In this document: positions 1 to 60,228 of the stretch, one piece after another | Layout: every line of letters begins with the position of its first letter | Numbering within the stretch: the first letter of the stretch is position 1 | Assembly (NCBI RefSeq): GCF_000024625.1 | Contig: NC_013407.1 | Span: forward strand, 186,001 to 250,000 | DNA length: 64,000 nt | Direction of reading: 5' to 3' | From: Methanocaldococcus vulcanius M7 | GTDB lineage: Archaea > AGJL01 > Methanococci > Methanococcales > Methanocaldococcaceae | Program-made: the position numbers and the translations under genes | Notes under the pieces: model-generated | Seen by the model: only the letters and a program-made list of their open reading frames with translations | What the model was told of the DNA's origin: nothing | Databases searched by the model: none

Positions 1-180
1 GTAATACCCAAGGTTATTAATTTTAATTATTAATTTTCATTAAATTTTATTAAATTAAATCAAAAATAACTAAAAACAGTAGAACAAACGTTTAATAATA
101 TGTTTAATAAATATTTTCGTAAATATTGATCACCACATCAGAGAGTTGCTTAGATTATGATAAACTATTTGGTGGACTTG

Positions 181-56076: not shown

Positions 56077-56313
56077 ATATTTCACATCCAATTGTTCATC
56101 TTTGAAGACACCAAATAAAGGTATCATCAAAAGAGAGATTAAATAAACAATAAACTAATTAGTATAAAAAGGTTTGCATAGTTTTTAAAAATATTTAAAT
56201 AAAGTTTAAATAAAAATTTTGAGATTATGATTAACTAACAAAAAGAAGATAGTTAAGAATAGAGAATAATAAACATATAATAAAAAGTAATAAAAAATAA
56301 GGAGGTGGTATTA

Positions 56314-57342
56314 TTGGGAAAGATTAAAACACTCTATGGAACAATAAAAACAAAAAGCCCATGTCATAACGCTCTTAAGAAGAAGCCCACTTATGTTAAA
56401 AATGTTGAAGTTCCTGTGATTCAGTTTTTTATATTGGAAAAGCAGTTATTAAACGAGTTTAAAAAATGGAATGTTCCTGTTCCAAAAGAGTTATTCAATG
56501 GTGTTGATAGGTTAATGTATCCAATGGGAAGAATAATTCCAATATCAAGTGCTTATCCAAAGGAAAGGGAAGATAACTTTACTGAGGATGTGGGAATATC
56601 ATCATTTAAAAGAAAGATTGGTGTTGAGGGAACTTATCAATTTAAAATTCCGATAAATATTAACGCTCCAACGGAAGAATTGGGACGGCTAATTGGGGCA
56701 ATAAAGTCATTATCTCATGTTGGAATTGGAGGGGATAGGACATTTGGATGTGGAAAGTGTCAAATTACTCTAAATTCTCTTAGTAAATATCCTCTACAAA
56801 AGATTGGAATATTTGCAGAGGTTTGGGATGATGAACTCTTTGATCCCTCTCCTTCATTTTTTGGAAATCTTATGTTAAAGGAGTGGGTAAAATACTCTCA
56901 TAAGTATGGGTGGAGGGGCGTAGAGGAATGGAAGGATCTAAGTGTCAGATATAATTACTGGGCAGAAAAGGTTAGATTACCAGAAGTTGACGTTAGAATG
57001 GTCGTTGAATATTCATTGAAAGAAGAAATACTGGAAAAATATGAAAAAATACACATTTTTGAGCCAATACCTTGGAGAATAAGAAATGATTGTAGAGAAT
57101 ACTGTAAAAAACACGGTTTACCTTATGTAAGATACTTTGGAGGAAGATTTTATATTGGAGAGGATTACATTGCCTATGAATCAATGGCTAAATTTAAACA
57201 TGATGAGATCGTTATCGAAGGTAAGGAGGAGGATGTTGAAAAGATTTTAGAGATTGTTTCCTCTTCATTAGAAAAATATGGTTATGTTAAGAACATTAAA
57301 AAATATGAAAAAAAGCACTACTTTAAACGATGGGCTGATTAA
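56314..57342 (+). CDS. Stand-alone RAMP protein resembling Csm4 (Cas5-like of type III)
   Basis: This 342-residue protein is not clearly known to me. The middle part resembles Csm4: FNGVDRLMYPMG, then GVEGTYQFKIPINI, then a helix ELGRLIGAIKSLSHVG followed by the glycine-rich loop GIGGDRTFGCGKCQI (about residues 152-170). Csm4 normally has another 40-60 N-terminal residues, and these seem to be missing. An extra C-terminal region of about 150 residues includes a second possible ferredoxin-like unit (HDEIVIEGKEEDVEKILEIV). No cas10, csm or cas6 genes are in the window. The TTG at 56314 lies six bases after GGAGGTGG; the GTG at 56305 is inside that site. Confidence 0.6.
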   Translation: MGKIKTLYGTIKTKSPCHNALKKKPTYVKNVEVPVIQFFILEKQLLNEFKKWNVPVPKELFNGVDRLMYPMGRIIPISSAYPKEREDNFTEDVGISSFKRKIGVEGTYQFKIPININAPTEELGRLIGAIKSLSHVGIGGDRTFGCGKCQITLNSLSKYPLQKIGIFAEVWDDELFDPSPSFFGNLMLKEWVKYSHKYGWRGVEEWKDLSVRYNYWAEKVRLPEVDVRMVVEYSLKEEILEKYEKIHIFEPIPWRIRNDCREYCKKHGLPYVRYFGGRFYIGEDYIAYESMAKFKHDEIVIEGKEEDVEKILEIVSSSLEKYGYVKNIKKYEKKHYFKRWAD

Positions 57343-57992: not shown

Positions 57993-58805
57993 ATGGAAGA
58001 GGATCAAAAAATATCTGTAAAGGGATTTTTCTTAGGTTTTGCAAGTGTTGAGGAGGGGTATTATTGTAAAGAATGCGGATTTACGTCCAAGGACAAGCGA
58101 GAATGTAGGGAGCATGGAGAGATGGAGAAGTGTAAATTGTTTTCTGGTAATTTCATGAGTCAGGAAAATGGAGTTATAACAATACTGGTGCCAGACCGAA
58201 AGATCATTCCCGATAACGAGGAATTTCTTCAATATTTAAGAAATAAGAAAGATCGTGAGGCAATAAGTATAATGAATGCTAAAATCCCTTTATTAATGCC
58301 GATAATTGTTGACGCAAGTATTGTTATTCCGAGTAAGAGGTTAGATATAACAGATAGTGGTAAAACTCTTGTCTTGTTTTTAAATAATGAAGAGGGAATG
58401 TGGTTAAATCCAGATGGTAGAATAGAGGTTATTTCCACAAGTAGGGATGAAATATTGGATGTATGGAACAAATTAAAAGAGAAATTTTGTGAAGACGTTT
58501 TATATATTTTAAAAAGCGAAGGAGGATATTATATCCCATCCATTCTTTCCCCAGATAGGTTCTTTTTAACAAGGGCATTCGTGGATAGGAGATTTGAAGG
58601 ATTTGGTCATAGATTGTATATAAGAAAGTTAGTAAAAGCAGGAAATAAGATAGTTCCTGTTAGGTATTATTTAAAAAGAAACTTTATAGACCCAGAAGTG
58701 TTTAATGACCTGGGTGTTAATTTCGATGGAAGTATATACGCAGTAGTGAACAGAAAGTATTATCCTTTAGGATACAGTTCTAAGATTTGGGAAGATATTT
58801 TCTGA
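57993..58805 (+). CDS. Unknown protein with N-terminal zinc-finger-like motif
   Basis: This 270-residue soluble protein is unrecognised. Residues 24-49 hold YYCKECGFTSKDKRECREHGEMEKC, a CX2C followed by Cys, His and Cys that could bind one zinc. The rest alternates short hydrophobic strands with charged helices (VITILVPDRKIIP, ILDVWNKLKEKFCEDVLYIL, RFEGFGHRLYIRKLVKAG), with no membrane segment. GGTGA precedes the ATG at 57993. Its stop is only seven bases from the SECIS hairpin of the convergent selD transcript. Together with the two preceding genes it forms a small island of unknown function. Confidence 0.75.
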   Translation: MEEDQKISVKGFFLGFASVEEGYYCKECGFTSKDKRECREHGEMEKCKLFSGNFMSQENGVITILVPDRKIIPDNEEFLQYLRNKKDREAISIMNAKIPLLMPIIVDASIVIPSKRLDITDSGKTLVLFLNNEEGMWLNPDGRIEVISTSRDEILDVWNKLKEKFCEDVLYILKSEGGYYIPSILSPDRFFLTRAFVDRRFEGFGHRLYIRKLVKAGNKIVPVRYYLKRNFIDPEVFNDLGVNFDGSIYAVVNRKYYPLGYSSKIWEDIF

Positions 58806-58811
58806 TTTTTT

Positions 58812-58846
58812 GGATGTGCCTCCCAAAATATGGGTTCGGCACATCC
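58812..58846 (-). promoter_or_regulatory. Archaeal SECIS element in the 3' region of selD
   Basis: On the minus strand GGATGTGCC (58846-58838) pairs perfectly with GGCACATCC (58820-58812). Inside, the 5' side has GAA and the 3' side a single A, then a CCC/GGG stem closed by the seven-base loop ATATTTT. The GAA/A internal loop under a three-pair GC stem is the defining archaeal SECIS structure that directs selenocysteine insertion at UGA. It lies about 120 bases after the selD stop codon, in the 3' untranslated region where archaeal SECIS elements are found. Confidence 0.92.
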
Positions 58847-58965
58847 TCTTGACGTTAAGTTTAATCGAATAAATCTGATATGTTTTTGGTTTTATATTTT
58901 TAATTTATAGGTTGATACTTTTGATTTTTTATCTTTGTTTCAACTTCCCAGCACCGAATTGTATT

Positions 58966-60015
58966 TTAAACCTCAACAATTTTGACATCTTTGCTTAAAA
59001 TTGCTCTACCTTCTCCTTTTTTTACAACTTTTCCTACTTCAAAAGCATAAACTTTATTTTTTCTAAGTTCTTCTATTAAATCATCTTTATAATCATTCTT
59101 TGTGGAAATTAACAAACCACCAGCTGTTTCGGCTCCGTATCCATCCAATAACGCATGTCCAAACATTTTACTGAGTTCGGGCGTTCTTTTTATACATGGA
59201 AGGAGGTTTATCTCAATTAGCACGTTGCTATTCTTTGCCATTTCATTTGAGTGGCCAAGGAGTCCAAATCCTGTTATGTCGGTAAGAGCGTTTGCTACTT
59301 TATCTCCTACTTTTTTTTCTGCATTCCTTAAAGATTTTAACGCATATCTGTTGGAGGTTGTCATCAACTCTATTGCCTTATTTATTATGTAGTTCATTTC
59401 CTCTTCATCTATGCCGATCAGTTCTTTGTAATCGTCAGGAATTCTTGAAAGTGCCATTGCTGTCTGAGTTCCTAATGGCTTTGTTAGAATTAAAACATCT
59501 CCTTCTTCTGCTCCTGCCTTTGTCAAAACCTCTTCTTCTTTTCCAACTCCGGTTACTGCTCCTCCAATCAGTGGCCATGGATTCATTATTGTATGTCCTC
59601 CTACGATCGTGGTGTTGTTCTCTCTGCAAAAGTCCTGAAATCCATTCAGCATTTTTTTGACAATATCTATGGGAAGTTTCTCTGGAATGCCAAGTATTAC
59701 CAAAACACCGATTATATCTAACAAACCCATTGCGTAAATATCGCTTGTTGAGTTGCATGCAGCTATTTTTCCCTGTATGTAAGGATCGTCAACGATCGGT
59801 GTAAAAACATCTACTGTCTTAGCAATAACCAATCCATTCCTTTTTATAACTGATGCATCATCTCCAAGTCCAACAATTATATTTTTTTCAGCGAGATCTT
59901 CATCTAAAATGATTCCTTTTACTAAGTATTCCAATTCGGTGCTGGGAAGTTTACAAGCTCATCCATGAAGTTTAACTAAACTTGTTAATTTTATATCTTT
60001 TTCTTTTTCAACCAT
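58966..60015 (-). CDS. selD: Selenophosphate synthetase SelD, itself a selenoprotein (in-frame UGA)
   Basis: SelD makes selenophosphate from selenide and ATP, the donor for selenocysteine and selenouridine. A normal translation stops at codon 19, and gene finders would place a false start at TTG 59934. Read from the ATG at 60015 (GGTGAAATC upstream), the protein is 349 residues, with TGA as codon 19 in KLHG-U-ACKLPS. The catalytic residue of SelD is Sec or Cys at exactly this place, followed here by Cys21 and Lys22. Further motifs are GLGDDASVI, VGGHTIMNPWPLIGG and TDITGFGLLGHSNEM. The SECIS hairpin downstream completes the case. Confidence 0.95.
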
Positions 60016-60228
60016 GATTTCACCCATCAAAAATATATATAAATTACAATCTACAATTTTGGATCTATAAAATAAAGCATAATAAAGTATGTGAATATAT
60101 GAGTTTTATGGTGTCTATCTTACATATTATCAATAAAATTGATGGCAGTATAAAATACTACCAATTAATTTTTTTAATCAGGTTTTTGGTATTTAAAATT
60201 TTAATTGATGAAAAGAGTTAATGAAGAT

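Follow-up and report, generated by a model that had tools for sequence, protein, structure and literature searches.

The selD gene of Methanocaldococcus vulcanius M7, which is recoded at an in-frame UGA, carries just 3' of this codon a 20-nt sequence perfectly complementary to a sequence lying between the selD stop codon and the SECIS element in the 3'UTR. We consider it likely, with a probability of about 0.72, that this pairing acts as a cis-antisense tether by which the SECIS is presented to a ribosome standing at the UGA; this function is inferred, without support from structure probing or expression data. The complementarity, its conservation and covariation, and its reappearance elsewhere in the order, in hdrA, fwuB and fwuB2, are shown by the sequences, as is its absence where the SECIS is near, where the codon is Cys or where no SECIS can be recognised. 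All coordinates below refer to the window, that is, the whole stretch of 64,000 nt that was analysed.

The selD reading frame and its selenocysteine codon

Under translation table 11, the open reading frame at selD extends over 58966-59934 on the minus strand and encodes 322 aa from a TTG start. When TGA is read as selenocysteine (Sec), the start moves to the ATG at 60013-60015 and the product has 349 aa with one TGA, at codon 19. The features of this reading are as follows.

58966..60015, minus strand: selD ORF, 349 aa, UGA codon 19 read through, TAA stop at 58966-58968
59959..59961, minus strand: Sec codon UGA, codon 19 of selD, in the motif G-U-A-C-K, conserved in 32 Methanococcales selD loci
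60020..60024, minus strand: selD ribosome-binding site GGTGA, 4 nt 5' of the ATG, by direct reading of the sequence

The N-terminal sequence of the product is MVEKEKDIKLTSLVKLHG-U-ACKLPSTELEYL. In a profile search the SelD equivalog NF010705 matched the 349-aa product at 642.7 bits (cutoff 291) over residues 4-349, therefore the upstream extension restores the N-terminus of the SelD family. Membership of the family is met by this full-length match, which includes the catalytic N-terminal motif; PDB relatives of the product are 3fd5 and 2yye. A survey of 36 Methanococcales genomes gave 32 full-length SelD loci, one locus cut by a contig end and three genomes without a match, and a phylum-wide search returned just the same 36 genomes. 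Every full-length SelD found has one in-frame TGA at the same site, so a sequencing error was rejected. The UGA occupies the catalytic Sec/Cys position of the protein, and does so throughout the order; the presence of Sec in the protein is inferred from the sequence.

The original prediction had described the conventional 322-residue reading from TTG, the extension through one TGA to an ATG preceded by GGTGA, the restored SelD N-terminus and the location of the TGA at the catalytic Cys/Sec position, and all of these held. The Sec codon itself is nothing new, as SelD is already known to be a selenoprotein in these methanogens. The published archaeal SelD/SPS selenoproteins (PMC11881835, PMC2933860, PMC11227280) have Sec at the catalytic site and a SECIS in the 3'UTR, both of which are shared by the selD of the window.

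The SECIS element and the Sec machinery

The 3'UTR of selD contains one further feature, a canonical SECIS.

58812..58846, minus strand: archaeal SECIS in the selD 3'UTR, GGAUGUGCC GAA CCCAUAUUUUGGG A GGCACAUCC, with the GAA_A motif

This element scored 39.1 bits (E 1.7e-7) against our SECIS model R1 and folds in prediction, and the z-score of the 3'UTR is -2.87. An Rfam scan of the selD locus yielded chance matches only and no SECIS family. In the SECIS alignment (A2), some loops were trimmed to equal length, solely for building the model. The detector overlooks variant elements, such as that of M. jannaschii hdrA and those of several genes of Methanococcus and of Methanothermococcus and its relatives, therefore its outcome 'NO SECIS' is not evidence of absence. 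A convergent 270-aa ORF without a Pfam match (57993-58805, plus strand) ends 7 nt from the selD SECIS.

The genome encodes an intact SelB (512 bits), a tRNA-Sec (70.5 bits) and SepSecS (583 bits). An apparent 'internal' TGA in SelB was rejected, as it is SelB's own stop codon. With a conserved in-frame UGA at the catalytic Cys position, an archaeal-type SECIS carried by its transcript, and tRNA-Sec, SelB and SepSecS all encoded, selD fulfils these criteria for a selenoprotein gene. The claim that the organism makes selenocysteine is supported by the same machinery and SECIS, and neither a lack of tRNA-Sec and SelB nor a Cys codon at position 19, named in advance as refuting it, was found. That Sec is used to make its own selenium donor, a feedback arrangement, follows logically and is an inference only. 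The long-range complementarity, which had gone unnoticed, is the more interesting feature of selD. As a separate observation, the nearly complete genome G014, with UGA-containing selD and fdhA, showed no tRNA-Sec above the Rfam cutoff (best hit 36.9 bits).

A proposed tether helix between the selD coding region and the 3'UTR

The two arms of the complementarity form a perfect 20-nt inverted repeat.

59932..59951, minus strand: 5' (coding) tether arm, +8 to +27 after the UGA, AACUUCCCAGCACCGAAUUG
58942..58961, minus strand: 3' (UTR) tether arm, between the selD stop and the SECIS, CAAUUCGGUGCUGGGAAGUU

As located by the repeat search, the coding arm begins 8 nt 3' of the UGA and the UTR arm is 990 nt away. 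No inverted repeat of at least 16 nt with arms 50-2000 nt apart was found in the 64-kb window besides this pair. In the minimum free energy fold of the 1.27-kb selD mRNA segment at 80 C, 20 of the 20 tether pairs are predicted to form, with a mean pair probability of 0.84.

The tether was compared across the order by groups of genomes, which we take to be Methanocaldococcus (g1), Methanococcus (g2), Methanothermococcus and relatives (g3) and Methanotorris (g5), with g4 as a further group. Genome G004 contains a 58,407-bp element, of which a sampled 4 kb showed 100% identity to the M. jannaschii DSM 2661 element NC_001732.1. Tether arms of 14-22 bp starting at +7 to +11 are present in all selD genes of g1 (13/13) and g5 (2/2), and the UTR arm in these genes usually begins at the stop codon or a few nt off. 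The same arm search detected no tether helix in selD of g2, g3 and g4. Since the selD genes of Methanococcus, Methanothermococcus and G033 lack the helix at about the same linear UGA-SECIS distance, the tether is not universally required.

The 15 selD genes with arms represent six distinct arm pairs, in which 98.8% of cells pair; when the partner was slid, pairing fell to 22-47%. Four pairs have changed on both sides, one of them with three pair types. The changes in the coding arm fall mostly on synonymous third codon positions and are mirrored in the UTR, and swapping arms between species with differing arms lowered the mean score from 44.2 to 28.1.

The proposed tether in other selenoprotein genes

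Tethers were also observed in three other selenoprotein genes. The coding arm of hdrA starts from about +26 to +36, and its helix has 20-29 bp in most g1 and g5 genes and 15-22 bp in g3. That of fwuB starts from about +22, with 19-26 bp in g1 and g5, 14-18 bp in g3 and g4, and 9-11 bp in g2, and that of the second fwuB gene, fwuB2, from +28 to +30, with 17-19 bp. The arms of hdrA and fwuB covary as well, with fewer informative pairs (2/12 and 3/15, respectively). The short or bipartite arms of mesophile hdrA and fwuB are still predicted to be paired at 37 C.

Additional helices accompany some fwuB genes. In g1 (L164-L166, L169 and L174) the first helix encloses a second one of 13 bp, between coding positions +107..119 and the 3'UTR. 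In g5 and G033, CACGGGC, directly 3' of the UGA, is joined by 7 bp to GCCCGTG, just 5' of the SECIS. One g1 hdrA gene (L169) has kept its SECIS with the tether reduced to a degenerate 9-bp remnant.

Controls and correlated absences

The same method recovered the published complementary flanks at the fdhA loci. For 153 ORFs without an internal UGA, taken from the same loci with the same window geometry, the best score averaged 20.0 (s.d. 2.9) and never exceeded 28, compared with 38-71.5 for the long helices of selD, hdrA, fwuB and fwuB2 in g1 and g5. No tether was found in fwcB, the Cys paralogues of fwuB (n=10; scores 16.5-26.5), nor in vhuU, fruA and vhuD, where the SECIS is within 400 nt. 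Of five hesB genes, one (L163, from G013) shows a match of 14 bp between coding positions +33..46 and the sequence just 5' of its nearby SECIS. In the g2 fwcB of L258, where Cys replaces Sec (ASVCHGP), a 9-nt coding arm still matches the 3' flank; it is possible that this is a relic of a tether left after the Sec-to-Cys loss.

Absence of a SECIS is accompanied by absence of the helix in hdrA. Among the g1 hdrA genes, five (L164 of G000, L178, L167, L170 and L171), one of them from the genome of the window, have no GAA_A SECIS in the 3'UTRs, which were read by eye, and no helix; the UGA is kept and the 3'UTR contains only a short UGA..UGA hairpin resembling a kink-turn. Recoding of these genes by the SECIS of vhuD, which lies some 0.5 kb further downstream in the operon they share, is a possibility, and a tether relocated to that SECIS was looked for without a convincing case. 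Likewise, no SECIS and no tether were seen by eye in three Methanococcus-like g2 hdrA genes (L205, L206 and L207), for which only the first 260 nt past the stop codon were inspected.

Energetics and spacing

Growth temperatures were assigned by genus and are not measured values. Calculated duplex energies are -10.7 to -19.5 kcal/mol at 85 C for the long g1 and g5 arms and -13 to -17 kcal/mol at 37 C for the shorter mesophile arms, which suggests that arm length is tuned to temperature. When whole segments were folded at the assumed growth temperature, the tether was predicted in 12 of 12 mRNAs with mean pair probabilities of 0.83-0.98, and it was little formed or absent in the predicted folds of armless selD and SECIS-less hdrA.

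Of the 47 loci whose score exceeds 30, 45 have their UGA-SECIS spacing shortened from 1.0-1.6 kb to 21-55 nt when it is counted across the helix. The exceptions are the selD of the window, which has the longest spacer and an effective distance of 103 nt, and L018 with 89 nt, in both cases because of an inserted spacer. As many of the loci come from close relatives, counts of this kind do not represent independent events.

Other observations on the window and its genome

The window contains at 56305-57342 (plus strand) a 345-aa ORF without a Pfam match, which by eye resembles a type III CRISPR RAMP protein. The second replicon of the genome (L245, 10,704 bp) shows 86% identity to the Thermococcus plasmid NC_019886.1 over half of a sampled 4 kb. 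We read this likeness as plasmid sharing between distant archaea, an inference from sequence alone.

Proposed mechanism

The pairing of the arms is strongly supported by the comparison; that it occurs in vivo, and the later steps of the mechanism, are inferred. In the proposed mechanism, selD would be recoded at UGA-19 by its 3'UTR SECIS. The sequence just 3' of the UGA would pair with that between the stop codon and the SECIS, so that about 1 kb of coding RNA is looped out and the SECIS is set tens of nt from the UGA. The SECIS, and whatever binds it, may thereby be held ready for a ribosome paused at the UGA. A ribosome that has passed the UGA would unwind the tether, and the helix would re-form behind it. 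At higher growth temperatures, longer helices may offset thermal melting.

A reporter SECIS without a tether was active at 520-679 nt in M. maripaludis, at a mesophilic temperature (PMC9622424). Addition of fdhA1-like flanks to a 5'UTR reporter SECIS left its activity unchanged, and recoding appeared twofold higher only once normalised to a threefold lower mRNA level (PMC11881835). Given these equivocal reporter results and the activity of the untethered SECIS, the tether probably helps recoding without being strictly necessary for it. Its importance is likely, by inference, to grow with distance and temperature.

A bolder reading, which we favour only by a small margin, is that, when the SECIS lies about 1 kb or further from the UGA, the selenoprotein mRNAs of Methanococcales are generally folded by tethers to an effective spacing of about 20-55 nt. 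The length of these tethers would be matched to growth temperature, and each ribosome would reset them. This would be a positional answer to how SECIS and ribosome communicate in a domain without SBP2 and with a SelB that leaves the SECIS unbound. In archaea SBP2 has no known homologue, and SelB failed to bind its SECIS (PMC11881835, PMC2933860).

Alternative explanations

The alternative that survives best is that the helix alone serves as a downstream roadblock pausing the ribosome at the UGA, like the eukaryotic Sec redefinition element, and that the proximity of the SECIS is incidental. In its favour, the arms begin near the leading edge of the ribosome, at +7 to +11 for selD and at +22 to +36 for the remaining genes. 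However, the arm start varies widely between genes while the effective UGA-SECIS spacing is steady at about 21-55 nt, selenoprotein genes with a nearby SECIS have no helix, and a local hairpin would suffice without an arm in the 3'UTR. We regard the roadblock as unlikely, although it is not excluded.

A second alternative is that the helix serves mRNA stability or decay, or autoregulation of the transcript, with no direct role in recoding. The threefold lower mRNA caused by fdhA1-type flanks in the reporter (PMC11881835) speaks for it. Against it, the helix occurs in selenoprotein genes only, always just 3' of the UGA and beside the SECIS, and is missing from the Cys paralogues and the SECIS-less hdrA genes. 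It cannot be ruled out, but appears very improbable.

Harder still to maintain is the view that the inverted repeats arose merely through recombination or template switching, with gene conversion preserving their likeness, and have no function at the RNA level. The arms are indeed often perfect and their changes mirrored. This reading was rejected on the following grounds: the arms, just 9-29 nt long, lie at an equivalent place in each of four selenoprotein genes; some helices are bipartite or include G-U pairs; helix length tracks growth temperature; and the window has no other inverted repeat of the size and spacing searched.

Finally, a true stop or an error at the selD TGA, with a 322-aa product started at TTG, is what automatic annotation under table 11 would yield, and it was rejected and is all but excluded by the order-wide conservation of the UGA, the N-terminal motif and the downstream SECIS, and by the Sec machinery encoded in the genome.

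Significance and comparison with known systems

By what route a 3'UTR SECIS in archaea gets to a ribosome paused at a UGA one kilobase upstream is an open question. The conserved, covarying tether, which recurs in several independent selenoprotein genes, offers an answer that is concrete and lends itself to mutation. With it, what was a curiosity of one 5'UTR gene becomes an apparent rule for long-distance genes, and the tether may provide a route to designing archaeal selenoprotein genes for high temperature. In the literature that can be searched in full text, outside of which most subscription journals lie, repositioning of a SECIS by complementarity to the ORF had been described for the fdhA1 5'UTR only. 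What appears new, within the literature searched, is that the arrangement extends to 3'UTR genes and that its arms covary, together with the distance rule and the correlated loss.

The closest known system is the 5'UTR SECIS of fdhA1 (Peiter et al. 2025, PMC11881835), in which UTR sequence adjacent to the SECIS likewise pairs with the coding sequence just 3' of the UGA, bringing the SECIS near, and the pairing is likewise longer in thermophiles and conserved in Methanococcales. Complementarity of this type is met by selD with 20 bp and by most hyperthermophile orthologues and other genes with 14-29 bp. The presence of a 5'UTR SECIS flanked on both sides is not met: fdhA1 has an exceptional 5'UTR SECIS with two flanks, whereas selD has a 3'UTR SECIS and a single arm on its 5' side. 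Here the genes are selD, hdrA, fwuB and fwuB2, the main arm lies 5' of the SECIS, the spans are 1.0-1.6 kb, and covariation and negative controls are added.

Two further systems bear a more distant likeness. In Tombusvirus readthrough (PMC3234231), a sequence close to the stop codon that is recoded base-pairs with an element far off on the 3' side, and this promotes recoding. That system is viral and involves no SECIS, tRNA-Sec or SelB, and homology is not claimed. The selenocysteine redefinition element of SEPN1 is a structure directly 3' of the Sec UGA that aids recoding. It is a local hairpin within the ORF, whereas the selD tether has one of its strands in the 3'UTR.
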